Part shown: positions 19,142 to 33,097 of the stretch, piece after piece
Position numbering within the stretch: the first letter of the stretch is position 1
Layout: every line of letters begins with the position of its first letter
Assembly (NCBI GenBank): GCA_012798435.1
Contig: JAAZNF010000029.1
Span: 1-34,019, forward strand
Source: Myxococcales bacterium
GTDB taxonomy: Bacteria; Myxococcota; B64-G9
Direction: 5' to 3'
Length of the DNA: 34,019 nt
Translations under genes and position numbers: made by a program
Notes under the pieces: generated by a model
Told to the model about the DNA's origin: nothing
Seen by the model: only the letters and a program-made list of their open reading frames with translations
The model's database searches: none

Positions 19142-22100
19142 ATGCCGAGAAAACCCCTGTGGTTGGTCTGGTGTATGGGCCTGTCTGTTGTGGTGGGCGG
19201 ATTCGCCTGCTCCGATCAGTCCGCCACACCCCAGGATGGTCCGCAGACCTGCACCCGCGCCGAGGACTGCCCCATCGGCCAGGACTGCATCGACGGAGTT
19301 TGCCAGACCCCGGGCGGCGATGGGGATCGCTGCGTGCGCGACGAGGATTGCGGCGCCGGTCAGGTGTGCCGCGAGGGCCACTGCGTCGAGGCGCCTGATG
19401 GGGGCGATGACGGGGGCGACGGCGATGGCGCGGACGAGCCCGACATCGAGATCCTGGAGCCGACGCTGGCGGGGAGCCCCCCGGCGTACCTTCTGGACTT
19501 CGGCTCGGTGACGGTGAACCAGCAAGTGGCGGGCGTCATCCGGCTGCGGAACACCGGCGCCGCCGAGCTCCGGATCGTGGAACTCAACTTCGAGATGGGG
19601 AGCTCGAGCGAGTTCTTCCTGGACGCCGCCACCCGGGATCGCCTGCCGATCAATGTGGCCCCGGGAGAATCTACGGTGATCGAGGTGCAGTACCTGGCGC
19701 AGGACGGGCGCTCGGACAACGGCGTGCTCGACATCCTCTCCAACGATCCCGACGAGCCCCGGGTGCCCATCCTCTTGCTCAGCGAGTTCAAGGGCCGCGC
19801 GCGCATCTCGCTGAACCCGGCCTCGTTGGACTTCGGCGACATCCGTGTCGGGGACAGCGCCAGGCTCTCCTTCTCGGTCTCGAACCAGGGAACGGGAAAC
19901 TCCGTGCTCACCGTGCGCGGCGTCCAGCTCGCCAGCCTCGTCAACGACCACTTCGCGCTCGTCGAGCTGGCCGCGTTTCCTTTCTACCTCGGAGTGGGGG
20001 ACGCGCTCTCGGTGGTCGTGGAATTCCATCCCGCCGCCGAGAGCACCCTCGCCGACCGGGTGATCGTGGTGAGCGATGATGCGGACCTCCCGCAAGCGGA
20101 GGTGGGGCTGGCCGGTCGCGGGGTCTCGCCCAACCTCAAAGTCGATCCGGCGCCGGTGGACGTGGGCGAGGTGCGGATCGGCTGGGTGGGCGAGCTGCCG
20201 GTCGAGATCAGCAACCAGGGCGGCGCGCCGCTGGCCGTGACCGGGCTCCGACTCGGCGACGGAACCCCGGAGTTCGTCCTGGCCTCCGACCCGGCGACTG
20301 GCTTCGATCTCGTCAACCTGTCCCCAGCCCAGCCGCAGCTCCTGTCGCCGGGGGAGGGGAGGTGGTTGTCCCTCTCATACGCACCGGTGGACGAGGGCGA
20401 GGACAACGCCGAGCTCGTGGTGGAGAGCCCCGACATCGCTCCTTCACCCCGGCGGGTATCCGTGCGCGGGCTCGGCTACTTCCCGCCGGCCATCGAGGTG
20501 GAACCGCAGCGGCTCGACTTCGGCGATCTGCACGTGCGGGCGGTGCTTAGCGCCAACCTCGTGGTGCGCAACATCGGGCGCCGCTTCCTCTCCGTCTCCG
20601 AGATGCGGATCGTCGGCCCGGCCAACACCTTCAGCTTCTCCCCGCCGGCGCTACCCGCGCTCGGTCCGGGGGAGCAAGCCCTGCTCCAGGTGGGTTTTTC
20701 CTCGCAGACCATCGGGTGGCGCGAGGGTGTGCTGGAGCTGGTGAGCAACGATCCCGATCGGCCAGTGCAGAACGTGCCGCTCTCCGGCAACGCCATCGAT
20801 CCCAACATCTTCATCCTGCCCCTGTCGCCGTACGACTTCGGCTCGGTGTACCGTGGCCAGTCGGCCACGGTGACGGTGTACCTGACCAACGCCGGCGTCG
20901 GGCCGCTGGAGATCAGCGCCATCTCGATCAACTCCGGGAGCTCGCCGGACTTCGCCCTGGAAAACCTGCCGGCGCTGCCGCTCACCATCGCCAACTCCTC
21001 CGAGATCGTGACCTTCACCATCCGCTACTCGCCACTCGAGGTGGCGCAGGACGACGGCGCGGTGCGCATCGAGAGCCTGGACCTGGACGCCCCGGTGCGC
21101 ATGCTGGTGCTCACCGGCCGCGGTGGCGGCTGTCCCACGGGCTTCTGGGACATCGACGGCGATCCCGCCAACGGCTGCGAGTACCCATGCAACCTGACGA
21201 ACAACGGTCTGGAGGCCTGCGACACCATCGACAACGACTGCGACGCGCTCACCGACGAGGACTTCGACTTGGCGACGAACCCCCTCCACTGCGGCGCCTG
21301 CAACCGGCGCTGTGGCTTCGTGCATGCCCAGGCCCTGTGCCAGGGTGGGCAGTGCCTCATGGGAGCTTGCGACGTCGGCTACTGGGACATCGACCATAGC
21401 GACGCCGACGGATGCGAGTACCCTTGCAGCCGGACGAACAACGGCGTGGAGGCCTGCGACCGTATCGACAACGACTGCGACGGCGACACCGATGAAGGCT
21501 TCGATACCCAGAGCGACGTCTCCAACTGCGGCTCCTGCGGAAACCTGTGCTCACTGTACCGCGCCACCCCGGCCTGTGTCGGCGGGCAGTGCCGCGTCTC
21601 GAGCTGCGACATCGGGTTCGGCAACTGCGACAACGTCCACGCCAACGGATGCGAGGCTGACCTGGCCAGCGATCCGCTCAACTGCAACGGCTGCGGCAAC
21701 GTGTGCGTCATCCCCAACGCGCCGCCGAACTGCGTCGGCGGGATGTGCGTCCCCGGCGACTGCAGCAGCGGCTTTTTCGACTGCGACGGGGATCCCGGCA
21801 ACGGCTGCGAGACCAACCTCAACATCGACTTCGCCAACTGCGGCGCCTGCGGCCACGCCTGCGACGCGGGAGAGAACTGCGCCGGCGGCCAGTGCCACTG
21901 CGGCACCATCGGGCCGGACTGCGCGACCCCGGAGACGTGCTGCGACATCGAGTGCGTGGACTTGCAGGCGAGTCAGGATCACTGCGGTTCTTGCGGCAAC
22001 GCCTGTCAGGCGGGTGAGAGCTGCCTCGCTGGCCAGTGTCGCTGCGGTGGCACCGGCCCCGATTGTGATGCCAGTCAGATCTGTTGCGGCACCGGCTGCT

Positions 22101-25100
22101 TCGACCCCTTGACCTCGGTGGCCCATTGCGGGCAATGCGCTGTCTCCTGCGATGCCGGCGAGACCTGCCAGCTCGGCTCTTGCCGCTGCGGCGGCAGCGG
22201 CCCCGACTGCTCCGGCATCTACGTGTGCTGCGGCACTGCCTGCATCGATCCCATGAGCGACAACCTGCACTGCGGAGGCTGCGGCAACGCCTGCAACCCC
22301 GGCGAGGTGTGTACCGGCGGGATCTGTCGCTGCGGTGGCACGGGACCCGATTGCAGCGCGCCGCTCTCGTGCTGCGGAACCCAGTGTGTCAACCTGCAGG
22401 GCGACAACAGCGACTGCGGCAACTGCGGCATCGCGTGTGACGCGGGCGAGTCCTGCCTGGCGGGCGCCTGCCGGTGCGGCGGCAGCGGCCCCGACTGCTC
22501 CGGCTCGCTGTCGTGCTGCGGCACCGCCTGCGTCGACCGGCTCATCGACGAGAGCAACTGCGGCGCCTGCGGCGTGCTGTGCGACAGCGGCGAGTTCTGC
22601 ATCGATGGGCAGTGCCGCTGCGGAGGCATCGGGGCCAACTGCTCGGCTCCGCTCACCTGCTGCGGCAGCAGTTGCGTGAACCTCTCCAGCAACCCCGGCA
22701 ACTGCGGTGGCTGCGGAAACATCTGCGATTCCGGCGAGAGCTGCGTCTCGGGGACATGCAAGTGCGGCGGCACCGGCTCGGACTGCGGGCCGGGCCAGAC
22801 CTGCTGCGGCACGAGCTGTGTCAACCTGCAGAGCGACGGCAGCAACTGCGGCTTCTGCGGCAACGTCTGTGACCCCGGCGAGTCCTGCGCCAGCGGCGTG
22901 TGCCGCTGCGGTGGCACCGGCAGCGACTGCGGCTCCGCGCAGGCCTGTTGCGGCACCCAGTGCGTGGACCTCTCCTCCAGCGAGACGAACTGCGGCGCCT
23001 GCGGCAACGCCTGCGATCCGGGCGAGTTCTGCATCAGCGGCGTGTGCCGCTGCGGTGGGAGCGGCCCCGATTGCGTTTCGGGCCAGACCTGTTGTTCCAC
23101 GAGCTGCGTCGACCTCCAGAGCGACCCGGCCCACTGCGGCACCTGTACCACCGTCTGCGATGCGGGCGAGAGCTGTGTCGCCGGCGCCTGCCGCTGCGGC
23201 GGGAGCGGTCCCAACTGCTCCGCGCCCATGTCCTGCTGTGGAACCAATTGCGTGAACCTCCAGAGCGATCCGCTCTACTGCGGCAACTGCGCCACCGCCT
23301 GCGACCCGGGGGAGAGCTGCGAGGCCGGATCCTGCCGCTGCGGCGGCACCGGGCCCAATTGCAGCAGCCCCAGCTCGTGCTGTGGGACCAGCTGCGTCAA
23401 CCTCCAGTCCGACCCCGCCCATTGCGGCACCTGCACGATGGCCTGTGACGCCGGCGAAAGCTGCCAATCCGGTGCCTGCCGCTGCGGGGGCACCGGCCCG
23501 AACTGCACGCTCCCCCTGAGCTGTTGCGGGGTGGACTGCTTCAACCTCGAGAGCGACGGTGCACACTGCGGAGGCTGCGCGACGGTGTGCGATGCTGGGG
23601 AGACCTGCCAGTTCGGGGTATGCCGGTGCGGCGGGAGCGGGCCGGACTGCGTAAGTCCGCTCTCGTGCTGCACCACCTCGTGCGTGAACCTCCAGAGCGA
23701 CGCGACGCATTGCGGCAACTGCTCCACCGCCTGCGATCCCAACGAGACGTGCGTGTCCGGGGGTTGCCGTTGCGGCGGCACCGGGCCCAACTGTGCATCT
23801 CCGCAGAGCTGCTGTGGCACCTCCTGCGTCAATCTCCAGACCGACTCCACCAACTGCGGTGGCTGCGGCATCGTGTGCGATCCGGGGGAGAGCTGCGTGA
23901 ACGGCGCGTGCCGCTGCGGCGGCACGGGAGAGAACTGCACCTCCGCCCAGATCTGCTGCGGGACGCTGTGCTACAACCCGCTCACCGATCCGCTCCACTG
24001 CGGCTCCTGCGCCAACGTGTGCGACGCGGCCGAGAGTTGCGTGAACGGCGCCTGCCGCTGCGGCGGCAGCGGACCCGATTGCGCATCCGACCAGATCTGT
24101 TGCGGCACGGCATGCTACAACCCGCTCAGCGATCCCGCCCACTGCGGCAGTTGCAGCACCGTGTGCGACGCCAACGAAACCTGCGTGAGCGGGGCCTGCA
24201 AGTGCGGCGGCAGCGGGCCGGACTGCGCCTCCCCGTTCAGTTGCTGCGGCACCTCCTGCGTCAACCTGCAGACCGACCGCAACCACTGCGGCAGCTGCCC
24301 GAACGCCTGCCAGGCAGGCCAGTACTGTAGCGCCGGCTCCTGCGTGCCGGGGTGCCTTTCCGACGCCGACTGCGGCGGGCTCTCCTGCTGCTCCAACCAG
24401 TGCGTGGACCTGTCCAGCAACAACTCCTTCTGTGGCTCCTGCACCAACGCCTGCGGTGTCGGCGAGAGCTGCGTCAGTGGCGCCTGCAGGTGCGGCGGCA
24501 CCGGGCCCGACTGCGCCTCCAGTCAGATCTGTTGCGGCGCGGGCTGCTACGATCCCCTCAGTGACGAATCCCACTGCGGCTCCTGCGCCACCGTGTGCGA
24601 CGCGGGCGAGATCTGCACCGGCGGCCTGTGCAAGTGCGGTGGCAGCGGGCCCGACTGCAGCGGTGGCCTGGCCTGCTGCGGCACCTTGTGCGTCAACCTG
24701 CAAAGCGACAACAGCCACTGCGGGAGCTGCACCAACGTGTGCGACGCCAACGAGAGCTGCGTGAGCGGGGCCTGCAAGTGCGGGGGCATCGGCGCGGACT
24801 GTGCGAGCCCGCTCTCCTGCTGCGGAACGAGCTGCGTGAACCTCGGGAGTGACAACAACCACTGCGGCGCCTGCGGCAACGTGTGCGGGGCGGGCGAGAG
24901 CTGCGTCGGGGGCCAGTGCCGCTGCGGCGGCAGCGGCCCCGATTGTTCCTCCTCCCAGATCTGTTGTGGGACGAGCTGCTACGATCCGTTGACCAATCCA
25001 TCCCACTGCGGCAATTGCGCCACGGCGTGCGATGCCAACGAACAGTGCGTGGGGGGCGCCTGCCAGTGCGGCGGCAGCGGGCCGGATTGCTCGTCGGCGC

Positions 25101-26470
25101 AGATCTGCTGCGGCACCTCGTGCTACAACCCGCTTACCGATCCCGCCCACTGCGGAAGTTGCGCCACCGCTTGCGACGCCAACGAGACGTGCGTGAGCGG
25201 CACCTGCAAATGCGGCGGCAGCGGGCCGGACTGCGGCGGCGGGCTCATCTGTTGTGGCACGAGCTGCTACGATCCGCTGACCCACCCCTCCCACTGCGGC
25301 AACTGCTCCACGGTGTGCGACGCCAACGAGCAGTGCGTGGGAGGCACCTGCAAGTGCGGTGGCAGCGGGCCGAACTGCGGCGCGGGGCAGCTGTGCTGCG
25401 GGACGAGCTGCGTCGATCCGGCCACCGACGAGTCGAACTGCGGCGGCTGTGGAGTGCTGTGCGACGCCGGGGAGATCTGCAGCGCCGGCGTGTGTCGCTG
25501 CGGCGGGAGCGGCCCCAACTGCAGCGCGCCCGAGGTGTGCTGCGGCACCGTGTGCGCCAACCTGGCCAGCCACAACGCCCACTGTGGCGCCTGCTTCAGC
25601 CCCTGCGACAGCAACGAGGTGTGCGTGAGCGGCCAGTGCCGCTGCGGCGGCAGCGGGCCCAACTGCAGCACGCCCATGTCCTGCTGCGGGACGAGCTGCG
25701 TGTCGCTGGCCTCGGACGCCAGCAACTGCGGCTCCTGCGGTTTCGCCTGCAACCAGAACGCCTACTGCAACGGGGGGAACTGCGCCTGCACCAGCCCCTT
25801 CGCCAACTGCAACGGCAGTTTCTCCGACGGCTGCGAGATCGACACCAGCACCGACGTGGCCCACTGCGGCAGCTGTGACCAGGCTTGCAACCTTCCCCAC
25901 GTGTCCGTGCACAGCTGCAGCGGCTCGGTCTGCCACATCCAGACCTGTAGCGCCACCTGGAACAACCTGGACGGAAGCGACCCTACCGGCTGCGAGTGCC
26001 AGGATGTAGGCAACGAGGCCAGCGGCAATAGCTGCGCCGCAGCCATCGACCTCGGCGTGCTGCCCGACAATGGCGCCACCGCTTCCTACACCGGCAACCT
26101 GAGCTTCGTGGGGGACGTGGACTGGTACAAATTCACCGCCTCCGACGGCGAGGACACACTCTCCAACTGCGGGGCCGGCAACGGTGAGACCTTCGACCTC
26201 CAGATCGCCATCGCGCCGACGCCCGGTGAGTTCCGCGTCTCGGTCTTCCGCGGGGATTGCGCCACCGAGGTGTGTCACCTGGACGAGAACGGTTTCCGCC
26301 TCGATGTTTCGTACAGCGCTCCAGATCACGGCGAGTGCCCGTGCCTGCCGTACGTGGCGAACGGCTACAAGGTTTGCAAGGCCTGGGGCGCGGTGTACTA
26401 CCTCAAGATCGAACGGGCCACCCCGACTACCTGCGGGACCTATACCCTGAGCCTGAGCAACGGCCTGTAA
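19142..26470 (+). CDS. Giant cysteine-rich surface protein with 27 Stig1-like repeats
   Basis: The 2442-residue product has a signal sequence ending in FAC (MPRKPLWLVWCMGLSVVVGG then Cys23), so it is probably a lipoprotein. Order: DxDC-type cysteine motifs (about 36-83: CTRAEDCPIGQDC, CVRDEDCGAGQVC); an Asp/Gly linker; five ASH/Hydin-type Ig-like domains beginning near 113, 221, 332, 451 and 555, each with a variant of LDFGDIRVG; two MopE-type motifs (IDNDCDALTDEDFD, IDNDCDGDTDEGFD) within about 664-790; a transition region; 27 tandem 48-residue repeats at 919-2214; and a C-terminal beta-rich domain (about 2215-2442, GDVDWYKFTASDGED) resembling pre-peptidase C-terminal domains. The ribosome-binding site GGGAGGAAG is strong. 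The architecture suggests a long, rigid, disulfide-bonded surface fibre. It lies between two paralogous SDR genes. Function is unknown. Confidence 0.88.
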   Translation: MPRKPLWLVWCMGLSVVVGGFACSDQSATPQDGPQTCTRAEDCPIGQDCIDGVCQTPGGDGDRCVRDEDCGAGQVCREGHCVEAPDGGDDGGDGDGADEPDIEILEPTLAGSPPAYLLDFGSVTVNQQVAGVIRLRNTGAAELRIVELNFEMGSSSEFFLDAATRDRLPINVAPGESTVIEVQYLAQDGRSDNGVLDILSNDPDEPRVPILLLSEFKGRARISLNPASLDFGDIRVGDSARLSFSVSNQGTGNSVLTVRGVQLASLVNDHFALVELAAFPFYLGVGDALSVVVEFHPAAESTLADRVIVVSDDADLPQAEVGLAGRGVSPNLKVDPAPVDVGEVRIGWVGELPVEISNQGGAPLAVTGLRLGDGTPEFVLASDPATGFDLVNLSPAQPQLLSPGEGRWLSLSYAPVDEGEDNAELVVESPDIAPSPRRVSVRGLGYFPPAIEVEPQRLDFGDLHVRAVLSANLVVRNIGRRFLSVSEMRIVGPANTFSFSPPALPALGPGEQALLQVGFSSQTIGWREGVLELVSNDPDRPVQNVPLSGNAIDPNIFILPLSPYDFGSVYRGQSATVTVYLTNAGVGPLEISAISINSGSSPDFALENLPALPLTIANSSEIVTFTIRYSPLEVAQDDGAVRIESLDLDAPVRMLVLTGRGGGCPTGFWDIDGDPANGCEYPCNLTNNGLEACDTIDNDCDALTDEDFDLATNPLHCGACNRRCGFVHAQALCQGGQCLMGACDVGYWDIDHSDADGCEYPCSRTNNGVEACDRIDNDCDGDTDEGFDTQSDVSNCGSCGNLCSLYRATPACVGGQCRVSSCDIGFGNCDNVHANGCEADLASDPLNCNGCGNVCVIPNAPPNCVGGMCVPGDCSSGFFDCDGDPGNGCETNLNIDFANCGACGHACDAGENCAGGQCHCGTIGPDCATPETCCDIECVDLQASQDHCGSCGNACQAGESCLAGQCRCGGTGPDCDASQICCGTGCFDPLTSVAHCGQCAVSCDAGETCQLGSCRCGGSGPDCSGIYVCCGTACIDPMSDNLHCGGCGNACNPGEVCTGGICRCGGTGPDCSAPLSCCGTQCVNLQGDNSDCGNCGIACDAGESCLAGACRCGGSGPDCSGSLSCCGTACVDRLIDESNCGACGVLCDSGEFCIDGQCRCGGIGANCSAPLTCCGSSCVNLSSNPGNCGGCGNICDSGESCVSGTCKCGGTGSDCGPGQTCCGTSCVNLQSDGSNCGFCGNVCDPGESCASGVCRCGGTGSDCGSAQACCGTQCVDLSSSETNCGACGNACDPGEFCISGVCRCGGSGPDCVSGQTCCSTSCVDLQSDPAHCGTCTTVCDAGESCVAGACRCGGSGPNCSAPMSCCGTNCVNLQSDPLYCGNCATACDPGESCEAGSCRCGGTGPNCSSPSSCCGTSCVNLQSDPAHCGTCTMACDAGESCQSGACRCGGTGPNCTLPLSCCGVDCFNLESDGAHCGGCATVCDAGETCQFGVCRCGGSGPDCVSPLSCCTTSCVNLQSDATHCGNCSTACDPNETCVSGGCRCGGTGPNCASPQSCCGTSCVNLQTDSTNCGGCGIVCDPGESCVNGACRCGGTGENCTSAQICCGTLCYNPLTDPLHCGSCANVCDAAESCVNGACRCGGSGPDCASDQICCGTACYNPLSDPAHCGSCSTVCDANETCVSGACKCGGSGPDCASPFSCCGTSCVNLQTDRNHCGSCPNACQAGQYCSAGSCVPGCLSDADCGGLSCCSNQCVDLSSNNSFCGSCTNACGVGESCVSGACRCGGTGPDCASSQICCGAGCYDPLSDESHCGSCATVCDAGEICTGGLCKCGGSGPDCSGGLACCGTLCVNLQSDNSHCGSCTNVCDANESCVSGACKCGGIGADCASPLSCCGTSCVNLGSDNNHCGACGNVCGAGESCVGGQCRCGGSGPDCSSSQICCGTSCYDPLTNPSHCGNCATACDANEQCVGGACQCGGSGPDCSSAQICCGTSCYNPLTDPAHCGSCATACDANETCVSGTCKCGGSGPDCGGGLICCGTSCYDPLTHPSHCGNCSTVCDANEQCVGGTCKCGGSGPNCGAGQLCCGTSCVDPATDESNCGGCGVLCDAGEICSAGVCRCGGSGPNCSAPEVCCGTVCANLASHNAHCGACFSPCDSNEVCVSGQCRCGGSGPNCSTPMSCCGTSCVSLASDASNCGSCGFACNQNAYCNGGNCACTSPFANCNGSFSDGCEIDTSTDVAHCGSCDQACNLPHVSVHSCSGSVCHIQTCSATWNNLDGSDPTGCECQDVGNEASGNSCAAAIDLGVLPDNGATASYTGNLSFVGDVDWYKFTASDGEDTLSNCGAGNGETFDLQIAIAPTPGEFRVSVFRGDCATEVCHLDENGFRLDVSYSAPDHGECPCLPYVANGYKVCKAWGAVYYLKIERATPTTCGTYTLSLSNGL
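21896..25783 (+). repeat. Tandem array of 27 coding repeats, 144 bp each
   Basis: The array spans exactly 27 x 144 bp without a single net insertion or deletion and encodes 27 units of 48 residues. The consensus runs RCGGSGPDC, then CCGTSCVNLQSD, HCGSC and CDAGESCVSGAC. Cysteines sit at unit positions 2, 9, 15, 16, 20, 30, 33, 37, 43 and 48 in every unit, including the divergent unit 18 (24344-24487, which begins VPGCLSDADC and has its first two cysteines at 4 and 10 instead), giving 270 cysteines. The pattern matches Stig1-like repeats known from myxobacterial secreted proteins; that link is from memory of the family. Confidence 0.92.
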
Positions 26471-28878: not shown

Positions 28879-29823
28879 CTACTTGCCTGGGTTGAGCATG
28901 CGCGCAAGCTCGTCGGCCAGGTAGTCCTTGACCGCGGCGATGGTGCGGCGCTTCGCCTCCACGTCGGCCTGCATGGCCTTGATCTGGGGCATGGAGCAGT
29001 CGGTGAGAAGCTCGAGGTAGCGCCACACCAGCCCGTCGTCCAGGCCGTGGATGCGGGCGCGGATGGCGTCGGGACTCTCGTGCAGGCAGATGGTGTTGCC
29101 GCACGACTTGGACATCTTGCTGCCGACGAACTCGCCCTCCCGCAACAAGGCGTCGGTGCCCTCCAGAAGCTCGGTGGTCACGGCGCACAGCGGCGGCAGG
29201 CCGCGCGCGGCCATGATCTCGCGCGCTAGCAGAAAGTTCTGTACCTGGTCCTGGCCGCCGACCTCCACGTCGATTTCGAGGTGCAAGGCGTCGTAGGCCT
29301 GCAGCAAGGGGTACAGGATCTCGTGCAACCCGAGATCGGGCCGGCGCGCCAGATCCTCGCGTGTGGCCAGGCGCTGCAGCGGCACCAGGCGCGCCAGCTC
29401 CAGCAGCTCCTCGAGCTTGAGGGAGGCCAGCCAGCTCGAGTTGTGCTCGATGCGCAATCGCGAAAGGTCGAGGAGGCGCCCCACCTGGTCGCGGTAGGTA
29501 CGCGCGAACTCGTCGACCTGGCTCCGCTCGAGGCGCGCGCGGCCCTCGTTGCGGGCCGAGGGATCCCCCACCGTGGCGGTGAAGTCGCCGATGAGGAAGA
29601 TCACCTCGTGGCCCAGGTCCTGGAACTGCCGCAGCTTGCGCAGCAGCACCGCGTGCCCCAGGTGCAGATCCGGCGCGGTAGGGTCGAAGCCGGCCATGAC
29701 CCGCAGCGGCCGGCCGGTCTCCATGGAGCGACCGAGCCGCGCCAGCAGCTCCTCGCGCTCGATCACCTCCGCGGTGCCCCGTAGGAGCAGGTTGAGCTGT
29801 TCGCTCGGATGGGCAAAGGCCAT
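28879..29823 (-). CDS. tyrS: Tyrosyl-tRNA synthetase lacking the C-terminal S4 domain
   Basis: The 314-residue class Ic enzyme attaches tyrosine to its tRNA. The HIGH-type motif is HLGH (54-57, in GFDPTAPDLHLGH) and KMSKS is at 236-240. Tyrosine recognition is supported by Tyr171, Gln175 and Asp178 (YPLLQAYD) and by VEVGGQDQVQN, so this is not a tryptophan enzyme. Typical bacterial TyrRS has about 400 or more residues, with an RNA-binding S4 domain at the end; here the protein stops right after the anticodon-binding helical region (EAKRRTIAAVKDYLADELAR). The region beyond the stop shows no S4 sequence in any frame that I recognise. It is 12 bases downstream of ymdB, in the zapA-rny-ymdB cluster. 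Confidence 0.88.
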   Translation of the reverse strand: MAFAHPSEQLNLLLRGTAEVIEREELLARLGRSMETGRPLRVMAGFDPTAPDLHLGHAVLLRKLRQFQDLGHEVIFLIGDFTATVGDPSARNEGRARLERSQVDEFARTYRDQVGRLLDLSRLRIEHNSSWLASLKLEELLELARLVPLQRLATREDLARRPDLGLHEILYPLLQAYDALHLEIDVEVGGQDQVQNFLLAREIMAARGLPPLCAVTTELLEGTDALLREGEFVGSKMSKSCGNTICLHESPDAIRARIHGLDDGLVWRYLELLTDCSMPQIKAMQADVEAKRRTIAAVKDYLADELARMLNPGK

Positions 29824-29835
29824 GTCGTCCCCCTT

Positions 29836-30636
29836 TCAGCCCGCGATTCGCCATTCCCGGCGCGCCACGGACAGGCAGCGCCCGCTGTCGGGGTCCACCT
29901 CGATGAGCGCGCCTTGCAACTGCACGTCCCCCCGGGCCAGCTCGAAGGGCGAGTGCCGCTTGGTGAGGAAGCGCCGGAGCGCGTCGGCGCTCTCGACACC
30001 GATGACCGAGTCGCAGGGGCCGCACATGCCCAGATCGGTCTGGTAGCCGGTGCCGCCCGGCAGCACCTCGGCGTCGGCGGTGGGCACATGGGTGTGGGTG
30101 CCGACCACCGCGCTGACCCGGCCGTCCAGGTAGCGGCCCATGGCGCGCTTCTCGCTGGTGGCCTCGGCGTGAAAGTCCACCACCACCATGCAGGTCTCGC
30201 GGCGCAGCGCCTCCAGGGCCTGGTCGGCCGCCCGGAAGGGGCAGGGCAGCGGGCCCATGAAGAGCTGTCCCTCGAGGTTGAGTACGCCCACCTTGACGCC
30301 CTCTTTGCTAGCGAAGACGCCGAAGCCCCGGCCGGGCGTGCCCTCCGGGTAGTTGGCCGGGCGCAGCAGGCGCGGCTCCTGGTCGATGAAGTTCTCGATC
30401 TGGCGGTACTTCCAGATGTGGTTGCCGCTGGTGAGCACGTCGATGGGCAAGGAAAGAAGCTCGCGCGCCACCTCCGGGGTCACGCCTACCCCGCCGGCGG
30501 CGTTCTCGGCGTTGGCGATCACGAAGTGCGCGCCGCACTCCTCGCGCATGCGGGCCATGGCTTGGCCGAGCGCCTGCCGGCCGGGCTTGCCCACCACGTC
30601 GCCAAGCATAAGGATGCGGAAGGGCTCACTTGGCAT
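29836..30636 (-). CDS. ymdB: YmdB-family metallophosphoesterase
   Basis: The 266-residue protein has all the YmdB landmarks: [51 protein letters not shown] and [10 protein letters not shown]. The Asp, Asn and His residues in these segments bind two metal ions. Family members hydrolyse 2',3'-cyclic nucleotides and affect RNA turnover and cell development; the gene regularly sits next to rny. Its ATG overlaps the end of rny by 11 bases, which suggests coupled translation. The function is inferred from the family. Confidence 0.93.
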
Positions 30637-32188
30637 ATTCCACCGCCCGGGTCTCGCGGATGACCGTGACCTTGATCTGGCCCGGGTAGGTGAGCTCCTG
30701 CTCGATCTTGCGGGCGATCTCCCGCGACAGCAGGGTGGCCTCGTCGTCGCTGACCTTGCTGTTCTCCACCATCACCCGGATCTCGCGCCCGGCCTGGATG
30801 GCGAAGGCCTTCTCCACACCGGCGAACGAGCGAGAGATGCGCTCCAGGTCGTCGAGGCGCTTCACGTAGGACTCGAGCATCTCGCGCCGCGCCCCGGGCC
30901 GCGCCCCGCTCAGGGCGTCGGCGGCCTGGATCAGGATGGCCAGCACGGTCTCGGGCGGCTCGTCCTCGTGGTGCGCGCGCACCGCGTGCAGGATCTTGGG
31001 CGATTCGCCGTACTTCTTGAGCAGATCGGCCCCGATCACCGCGTGCGACCCCTCCACCTCGTGGTCGATGGCCTTGCCGATGTCGTGCAGCAGGCCGGCC
31101 CGCCGGGCCAGCCGGATGTTCATGTTCAACTCGCCGGCCATGATGCCGGCCAAAAACCCCACCTCCACGCTGTGCTGGAGCTGGTTCTGGCTGTAGCTGG
31201 TGCGGTACTTGAGCCGGCCCAGGGTCTTGATGATGTCGGGGTGGATGCCGTGGATGCCCAGCTCGAAGCAGGCGTGCTCCCCGGCCTCCTTGATGACCTG
31301 CTCCAGCTCCTTCTCGGTCTTGGCCACGATCTCCTCGATGCGCGCCGGGTGGATGCGGCCGTCGGCGATGAGCTTCTCGAGGCTGAGGCGCGCCACCTCG
31401 CGGCGCACCGGGTTGAAGCCGGAGATGATCACCGCCTCGGGGGTGTCATCGATGATGAGGTCCATGCCGGTGGCCGCCTCCAGCGCCCGGATGTTGCGGC
31501 CCTCGCGCCCGATGATGCGGCCCTTCATGTCATCGTTGGGCAGCGGCACCACCGATACGGTGGCCTCGGAGACGTAGTCGCCCGCGTAACGCTGGATGGC
31601 GGTGGCCAGGATGTGCTTGGCGCGCTTGTCCGCCTCCTGGCGGGCTTCCTCCTCCACCTGCTTGATGAGCTTGCCCGACTCGTGCCGCGCCTCCTCCACC
31701 ATGGAGTCCAGCAGGGTCTTCTTGGCCTCCTCGGCGGACATGCCGCTGACCTTCTCGAGCTGGCGCTGGGCTTCCTGCAGGATGGCCTCGCGTTTGGTTT
31801 GCAACTCTTGCAGTTTCTGCTCGCGCGCCTGGAATTCCTTCTCGCGCCGCTTGAAGTCGTTGTCCTGCCGGTCCAGCAGGTCGGCGCGCTTCTCCAGGCT
31901 CTCCTCCCGGTGGAGCAGGCGTTTCTCCTGGGCGGAGAGGTTCTCTTGCTTGTTCCGGATCTCCTGATCGAGCTCCCGCCTGCGCTTGTCGACGATCTCC
32001 TTGGCCTCGATCTCGGCGGTGCGCTGGGCAAGCTCGGCCTGCTTGCGGGCCTCGTCCTGGATGCGCTGGGCGTCCCCGCGAGCGCGGGAGACGATCGAGC
32101 GGGCGGAGCGAACGGCCACAAGGTACGTGATCAAGGAGGAACCGACCACGGCGCCGACGGCGATCAAGATGACGATGATGGGGGACAC
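30626..32188 (-). CDS. rny: Ribonuclease Y
   Basis: The 520-residue endoribonuclease starts mRNA decay. It has an N-terminal membrane helix ([20 protein letters not shown]), a long charged coiled coil (about 30-200), a KH domain ([19 protein letters not shown] near 220) and an HD domain with His368-Asp369 ([12 protein letters not shown]), upstream histidine in [13 protein letters not shown] and [12 protein letters not shown]. The GTG at 32188 is chosen because GGGGGAGG lies 7 bases upstream and because the membrane helix begins right there; an upstream-extended frame has no such signals. The length agrees with the family (about 515-520). It is followed by ymdB with an 11-base overlap. Confidence 0.95.
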
Positions 32189-32489
32189 GGAGCACCTCCC
32201 CCGGACGCGATTGAAGCGTCCGGATATGTCAAGCCGGCCCCTGAAGGGCACGGCGGGTTGCGACGGCCGCGCGGGGCGAAATACCCCATGCGCCCGGGCA
32301 CCGGGGAAGGGCCTGGAGGAACGCCGGGAACAGGATGGACGATCGGGGTCGGACCGCGGGCCGACCGGCTCAGGACTTCCTTCTCCTTTCCCGATAAATC
32401 GTTGTCGTCCGCAGTCCACGAGGCGCCCGGTAGCGGACGCCCTCTCGCAAATCAGCACCACCTGTGGGATCGCGCATCACTATCCCGGA

Positions 32490-32675
32490 CACTCTGGGTC
32501 CCCGGGCTATGTGAACCCGTCCAAAACGGGACGGGGCCGTCTCGAAAAACCCCCGCCGTGGCCGTCGAGGCGAACGAAGGCAATGAACCTCGCCTTCAAA
32601 AAGGTGGGCGCGCCGTGACGGCGTCAGGCAACTTCCGCAGAAGCTGCACACGGCCGCAAGAGGGCGCTCCCAGGT
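32490..32675 (-). ncRNA. Structured RNA candidate, possibly 6S RNA (ssrS)
   Basis: In many Proteobacteria the 6S RNA gene lies just downstream of zapA, and that is where this segment is. On the minus strand it can form several hairpins: GCAGCTTC-TGCG-GAAGTTGC (one G-U pair), CGCCG-TCA-CGGCG, GAAGGC paired with GCCTTC, and CCCGTCC-CGTTTT-GGACGGG (32516-32535). A CTGGG near 32670 could pair with CCCAG near 32493, making a closed form of about 180 bases, close to 6S size. The exact ends are guesses: a GGGGGTTTTT run near 32546-32555 could end a shorter RNA of about 125 bases. I could not confirm the 6S consensus by eye. Confidence 0.35.
32516..32535. repeat. Perfect 7-base-pair hairpin in the zapA-rny gap
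   Basis: CCCGTCC (32516-32522) and GGACGGG (32529-32535) surround a 6-base loop. There is no U-run directly after it on either strand, so it is not a normal intrinsic terminator; it may be part of the structured RNA. Confidence 0.6.
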
Positions 32676-32739
32676 TTGTAAACGTTGGTTCATCCGTTTT
32701 CTATTCGCCCGTCACGCACCCGGCAGGGGAAGCGTGCCT

Positions 32740-33042
32740 TCAGTCCTTTTCCGCGCCCTCTCCGCAGGCCTGCCGGACGGTCTTCACCAGGCGGCGGATC
32801 CTCTCTCTAACCTCTCGAAGAACCTGCTCTTTTTCCTCTCTGGCCTTGAATAGCGCATCGGCGATGTTGAGCGCGGCCAGCACCGTCACGTTGTGCGTGG
32901 CCACGGCCTGGGAGGTGCGCTGGATCTCGGTGATCTGATCGTTTACGAACTTGGCCAGGTTCTGGATGTACTCCTCGCCGTCGTCGCTCTTTACCTTGAA
33001 GCGCTGGCCCAGGATTTTGACTTCTACGGTGCGCATTGTCAT
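32740..33042 (-). CDS. zapA: Cell division protein ZapA
   Basis: ZapA binds FtsZ and stabilises the division ring. The 100-residue product has the N-terminal beta strand and core (MTMRTVEVKILGQRFKV, EEYIQNLAKFVNDQI) and a long C-terminal coiled coil (LNIADALFKAREEKEQVLRE) that makes the tetramer. The ATG at 33042 is chosen over an in-frame ATG at 33063 because the promoter at 33068-33097 would start transcription near 33061, leaving the longer start at or beyond the 5' end; 33036 is a further in-frame alternative. The gene probably heads a transcript through the RNA candidate into rny, ymdB and tyrS. Confidence 0.9.
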   Translation of the reverse strand: MTMRTVEVKILGQRFKVKSDDGEEYIQNLAKFVNDQITEIQRTSQAVATHNVTVLAALNIADALFKAREEKEQVLREVRERIRRLVKTVRQACGEGAEKD

Positions 33043-33067: not shown

Positions 33068-33097
33068 AGTATATTTTTCGAGATCGCATGTTGTCAA
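33068..33097 (-). promoter_or_regulatory. Sigma-70 promoter of zapA
   Basis: On the minus strand, TTGACA (33092-33097) and TATACT (33068-33073) are separated by 18 bases. The -35 is a perfect match and the -10 matches 5 of 6. The start near 33061 gives a leader of about 19 bases to the ATG at 33042. The surrounding sequence is much more AT-rich than the rest of the window, as expected of a strong promoter. Confidence 0.75.

Follow-up and report, generated by a model that had tools for sequence, protein, structure and literature searches.

6S RNA forms a long hairpin whose central bubble mimics an open promoter; it binds the sigma-70-type holoenzyme of RNA polymerase, the housekeeping form, reduces transcription from a large number of promoters as growth slows, and is released when the polymerase copies it into a short pRNA. 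According to the available part of a survey of beta- and gamma-proteobacterial operons, the 6S gene (ssrS) always lies directly after zapA (PMC7641849), and ygfA is described as adjoining 6S in several groups, including some delta-proteobacteria (available part of PMC9130861, citing Barrick 2005 and Wehner 2014). The accessible part of PMC2245857 holds nothing on a zapA-6S-rny neighbourhood, and an open-literature search with the words 6S RNA, zapA and Deltaproteobacteria together found no paper.

The window, by which we mean the whole stretch of 34,019 nucleotides analysed here, contains a single Rfam match at curated cut-offs, to the 6S family RF00013. It lies at 32546-32732 on the minus strand, scores 64.7 bits against a cut-off of 46.4 (E 8.9e-11, cmscan) and covers the full model, positions 1-187; a focused scan with residue-level alignment returned the same match, and a whole-genome RF00013 search found one copy in the source genome. 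The original prediction had proposed a 6S RNA after zapA and named an Rfam search as the way to check it; the family and the neighbourhood were right, while the proposed span, 32490-32675, covers 130 of the 187 nt and lies about 57 nt too far downstream. We assign the locus as a 6S RNA gene (ssrS) of about 187 nt, with a probability of roughly 0.96. This settles the identity of a gene that had no annotation, in a lineage that has been little studied: it is 6S, a known family in a known kind of place and as such ordinary. The only surprise at the locus is a second conserved stretch, uncharacterised, which lies between 6S and rny.

All the neighbouring genes discussed here are on the minus strand. 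zapA (32740-33042; Pfam PF05164, 76.3 bits) lies upstream, its stop 7 nt before the start of the 6S model match. Downstream follow rny, encoding RNase Y (30626-32185; RNase_Y_N at 176.1 bits, with HD and KH_1), ymdB (29836-30636) and a class I tRNA synthetase gene (28879-29823), the last two also over their Pfam cut-offs. The ZapA and RNase Y domains are likewise above cut-off, and the gap between the zapA stop at 32740 and the GTG start of rny at 32185, previously put at about 550 bases, measures 554; it is crossed by mechanical open reading frames on both strands. Elsewhere in the window, a 2442-residue open frame on the plus strand (19142-26470) contains many cysteine-rich repeats like CGGSGPDC...CCGTxCVNLQSD, and perhaps encodes a large secreted or surface protein.

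The zapA-6S-rny order recurs in the window's family and in some others. A strictly filtered RF00013 search, which overlooked the window's own genome, gave matches at E <= 0.001 in 43 of 58 sampled genomes of the phylum; 14 other unmatched genomes were searched again and two gained a match, bringing the total to 46 of 58 including the window's own, with 43 over the family cut-off. A missing match is not proof of absence, because these genome searches scored only part of the first-look candidates. By a zapA profile, zapA lies upstream of 6S on the same strand in 20 of the 46 loci, and 11 of the 46 have both zapA upstream and rny downstream, a count that leaves out L046, where the rny match is weak and a frame resembling zapA was visible by eye. 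Eight of the nine genomes of the window's family gave a 6S match, each time between zapA and rny and starting 7 to 30 nt downstream of the zapA stop codon; in one locus outside the family (L027) it overlaps the zapA end by 21 nt. A ZapA scan of named genomes gave at least 80 loci, 40 of which were scanned with Rfam. Of these, 23 (15/20 and 8/20 in two batches) have a 6S over the cut-off beside zapA, between 20 nt ahead of its stop and 118 nt past it, three of the 23 (L054-L056) being the same contigs as three family loci. Among the ZapA loci listed, the nearest relatives with names carry the label Myxococcales or Deltaproteobacteria.

Two individual relatives are worth describing. In one 98%-complete family genome (G001; locus L053, C10:162400-164000), zapA and rny are in place and 6S was not found, either in two genome searches that scored part of the candidates or in an Rfam scan of the zapA-rny stretch at E 10, which gave only sub-threshold matches. 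In a distant relative (L135, genome G091), a frame resembling ygfA (5-formyl-THF cyclo-ligase) was seen by eye directly upstream of rny.

On the minus strand, positions 32540-32740 reach a predicted −94.2 kcal/mol against a shuffle mean of −77.6 (sd 4.6; z −3.6), lower than all 200 shuffles, so that the hairpins originally noticed on the zapA strand exceed chance. The window's 6S sequence and 20 hand-picked relatives (21 sequences in all) were aligned with MAFFT rather than fitted to the Rfam model. Folded with no reference structure from Rfam, the alignment takes up the arrangement typical of 6S: a closing stem, a central bubble and an apical stem. In this alignment 92.8% of the cells are paired (80.4 when shuffled, 39.5-49.0 when slid), 23 of 41 pairs are changed on both sides (15.0 when shuffled) and the covariation score is 0.433 against 0.197; none of 500 shuffles is as high on all five measures. 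Covariation in relatives, which had also been named as a check, thus supports the long hairpin with its central bubble. On the 5' side of the bubble, the 21 sequences strongly conserve a GAACCAAC stretch, which by analogy with E. coli 6S would lie near the pRNA start.

Two other explanations of the locus were weighed. The original prediction had allowed for a shorter RNA ending at the GGGGGTTTTT run. This run exists, at 32545-32554 on the minus strand, and is a possible RNA end point, but it consists of the 3' strand of the closing stem of 6S with a T run and is the last part of the model match, in a stem of which four of the 14 pairs are changed on both sides across the 21 aligned sequences. 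Because this run forms the 3' end of the 6S RNA itself, that alternative merges with the 6S assignment, and a shorter unrelated RNA or a zapA mRNA tail ending there is improbable in the extreme. A decayed, non-functional 6S copy is only slightly less improbable: the window's score is below those of six of the seven family relatives with 6S (58.8-90 bits) and the result for G001 suggests that the family may lose 6S, but the window's match is full length, most stem pairs are kept and, as noted above, no shuffle folds as low.

A sigma-70-type promoter candidate for a zapA-6S transcript, TTGACA-N18-TATACT, lies at 33068-33097 on the minus strand and matches 11 of 12 consensus bases. Promoter-like TTGACA-N18 sites with 10-11 of 12 matches precede zapA in all nine family loci, while shuffles of the same 150-nt stretches reach 10/12 in 26 of 2700 cases. 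Just before 6S, the best match in the window is 4/12, and the eight family loci with 6S reach 4-8/12 at no common site (mean 6.38, shuffled 5.98). We considered the missing promoter match before 6S as proof of co-transcription and rejected it: the 25 loci at which no zapA was detected next to 6S do no better (6.24, or 5.73 when shuffled), and since these too are without a strong match, its absence is weak evidence. What remains in favour of co-transcription are the promoter conserved before zapA and the 7-30 nt spacing, which together suggest a common transcript.

We infer that the 6S RNA is expressed, most likely from this zapA-6S transcript, which would start at the zapA promoter, run through 6S and be trimmed afterwards to the RNA of about 187 nt. 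The trimmed RNA would fold into the long hairpin with its promoter-mimicking bubble and, by analogy, would bind the sigma-70-type holoenzyme and hold RNA polymerase in check until freed via pRNA synthesis. A promoter of its own inside the 3' end of zapA, so that 6S would not be cut from the zapA transcript, stays a live rival to the co-transcription part of this scheme, although we think it somewhat improbable. E. coli ssrS has dedicated promoters, hexamers like a −10 element occur near the 6S start in some relatives (TATAAT in L032, CATAAT in L007), and nine loci outside the family with zapA within 30 nt of 6S score 6.56 against 5.50 when shuffled. The phylum may also not follow the E. coli consensus, given that loci without a detected zapA score little above shuffles. 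What speaks against a separate promoter is the contrast between the poor, unaligned matches before 6S and the uniformly good ones before zapA.

Other signals were seen around the 6S gene in relatives. In L010, an inverted repeat, CCCGTATCGCTTAGCGATACGGG, lies between the zapA stop and the 6S start and is perhaps a processing site. In three loci of one other family (L020, L026 and L035), GCTCTTTNAC, which we liken to boxA, lies 20-25 nt upstream of 6S. It occurs in three of the 46 loci, against 0.0025 predicted by base shuffling of the three regions concerned, hinting at possible antitermination of 6S transcription; an open-literature search with the words 6S RNA, boxA and antitermination together found no paper. 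On the minus strand after the window's 6S, a terminator scan found no classical short-hairpin terminator.

The second conserved region occupies the interval between 6S and rny and contains TTNACATA motifs beside predicted hairpins. The motif mostly occurs twice per family gap, once directly behind 6S and once ahead of the rny ribosome-binding site. In the window, module 1 (32508-32535, minus strand), just after 6S, consists of a hairpin at 32516-32535 followed by TTCACATA at 32508-32515; module 2 (32201-32232, minus strand), just before the rny ribosome-binding site, has TTGACATA at 32225-32232 followed by a hairpin at 32201-32224. Ten gaps (nine family members and L065) hold 16 exact copies of TTNACATA against a shuffle mean of 0.1 and a maximum of 2, a comparison that overstates the significance because the motif was picked after viewing the gaps and the sequences are related. 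Copy 1 reads TTTTTATA in L036, copy 2 is without the first T in L010 and L065, and the second copy is absent in L053; one exact copy also occurs in each of the gaps of L002 and L003, and none in that of L007. As a promoter element TTNACATA was rejected, no consistent −10 or −35 partner being visible by eye and copy 2 lying close to the rny start. Rfam gave no match to the 6S-rny region at E 1 in the window or at E 0.5 in ten relatives.

Evidence for structure in this region is modest. The hairpins beside the motif have Stouffer z-scores of −3.6 (upstream) and −1.9 (downstream) for module 1 and −4.8 and −4.2 for module 2, each from ten windows, the module 2 window of L053, which has no motif at that place, being set on a stand-in; the mean of 179 control windows is −0.44. 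The module 2 hairpin, which abuts the rny ribosome-binding site and is absent in L013, has 83.3% of its cells paired, against 33-50% when slid, with four of 500 shuffles as high. Its covariation is reached by six of 500 shuffles, its both-side changes by 133 and its further pair types by 161, a mixed result overall. A separate comparison on hand-registered arms proves little, as those arms were picked for their pairing. MAFFT and RNAalifold applied to the first 240 nt of the region in nine family members revealed no shared structure beyond one 7-pair stem with the 6S tail. A model of module 1 (R1), with three base pairs only, matches the window at 32454-32535, the window being one of its training sequences. 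In each of the nine family genomes it has a single match, always at this locus, and the next best match has E 0.0099; these nine sequences are the training set. In G020, G013 and G026 it failed to recover the region.

The family genome G001 is informative about how the two conserved elements relate. Although 6S was not found there, its zapA-rny stretch keeps zapA, a hairpin in the place of the post-6S one, TTTACATA and rny; since the region is kept where 6S was not found, it is not a by-product of 6S. For the same reason, the idea that the post-6S hairpin is just the 6S terminator was judged unlikely.

A role of the region in transcript processing or in self-regulation of RNase Y is plausible. 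RNase Y prefers a G at the cut site, a preference that TTNACATA does not match consistently, as its third base varies. In Bacillus subtilis, RNase Y regulates its own mRNA via cleavages in the 5' untranslated region and the early coding region (available part of PMC10303841), and the consensus of its sites is weak (available part of PMC11780869). A paired site for processing or self-regulation is plausible because of that self-regulation and that weak consensus: the rny 5' untranslated region in the window could be an RNase Y target, like the self-regulated mRNA of B. subtilis, although the part of PMC10303841 available to us mentions no such motif pair in B. subtilis rny. More specifically, and as a speculation that we consider rather unlikely, the region may be an undescribed leader RNA, in which two modules of hairpin, TTNACATA and hairpin act as paired processing or autoregulatory sites, perhaps RNase Y's, freeing 6S from the shared transcript and tuning rny translation via the ribosome-binding-site hairpin. 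If so, maturation of a growth-phase regulator of RNA polymerase would be coupled to the level of the main decay enzyme. Should the region prove functional, it would gain in importance by tying the biogenesis of 6S to the control of RNase Y within a single transcript, a link that we propose as a hypothesis from the nucleotide sequence.

Compared with known 6S genes (RF00013), the locus is alike in its full-length match, fold, covariation and place after zapA. It differs in that no strong sigma-70 match of its own was found before the 6S in the window, in that the zapA stop is only 7 nt from 6S, and in that 6S is followed by rny rather than by ygfA or EVE. Set beside the zapB-zapA-ssrS-(fau1)-EVE operons, as presented in the available part of PMC7641849, the window differs in its downstream genes, which are rny, ymdB and a class I tRNA synthetase gene, and agrees in having 6S immediately 3' of zapA; for those operons, the same source suggests that a polycistronic transcript may include 6S.
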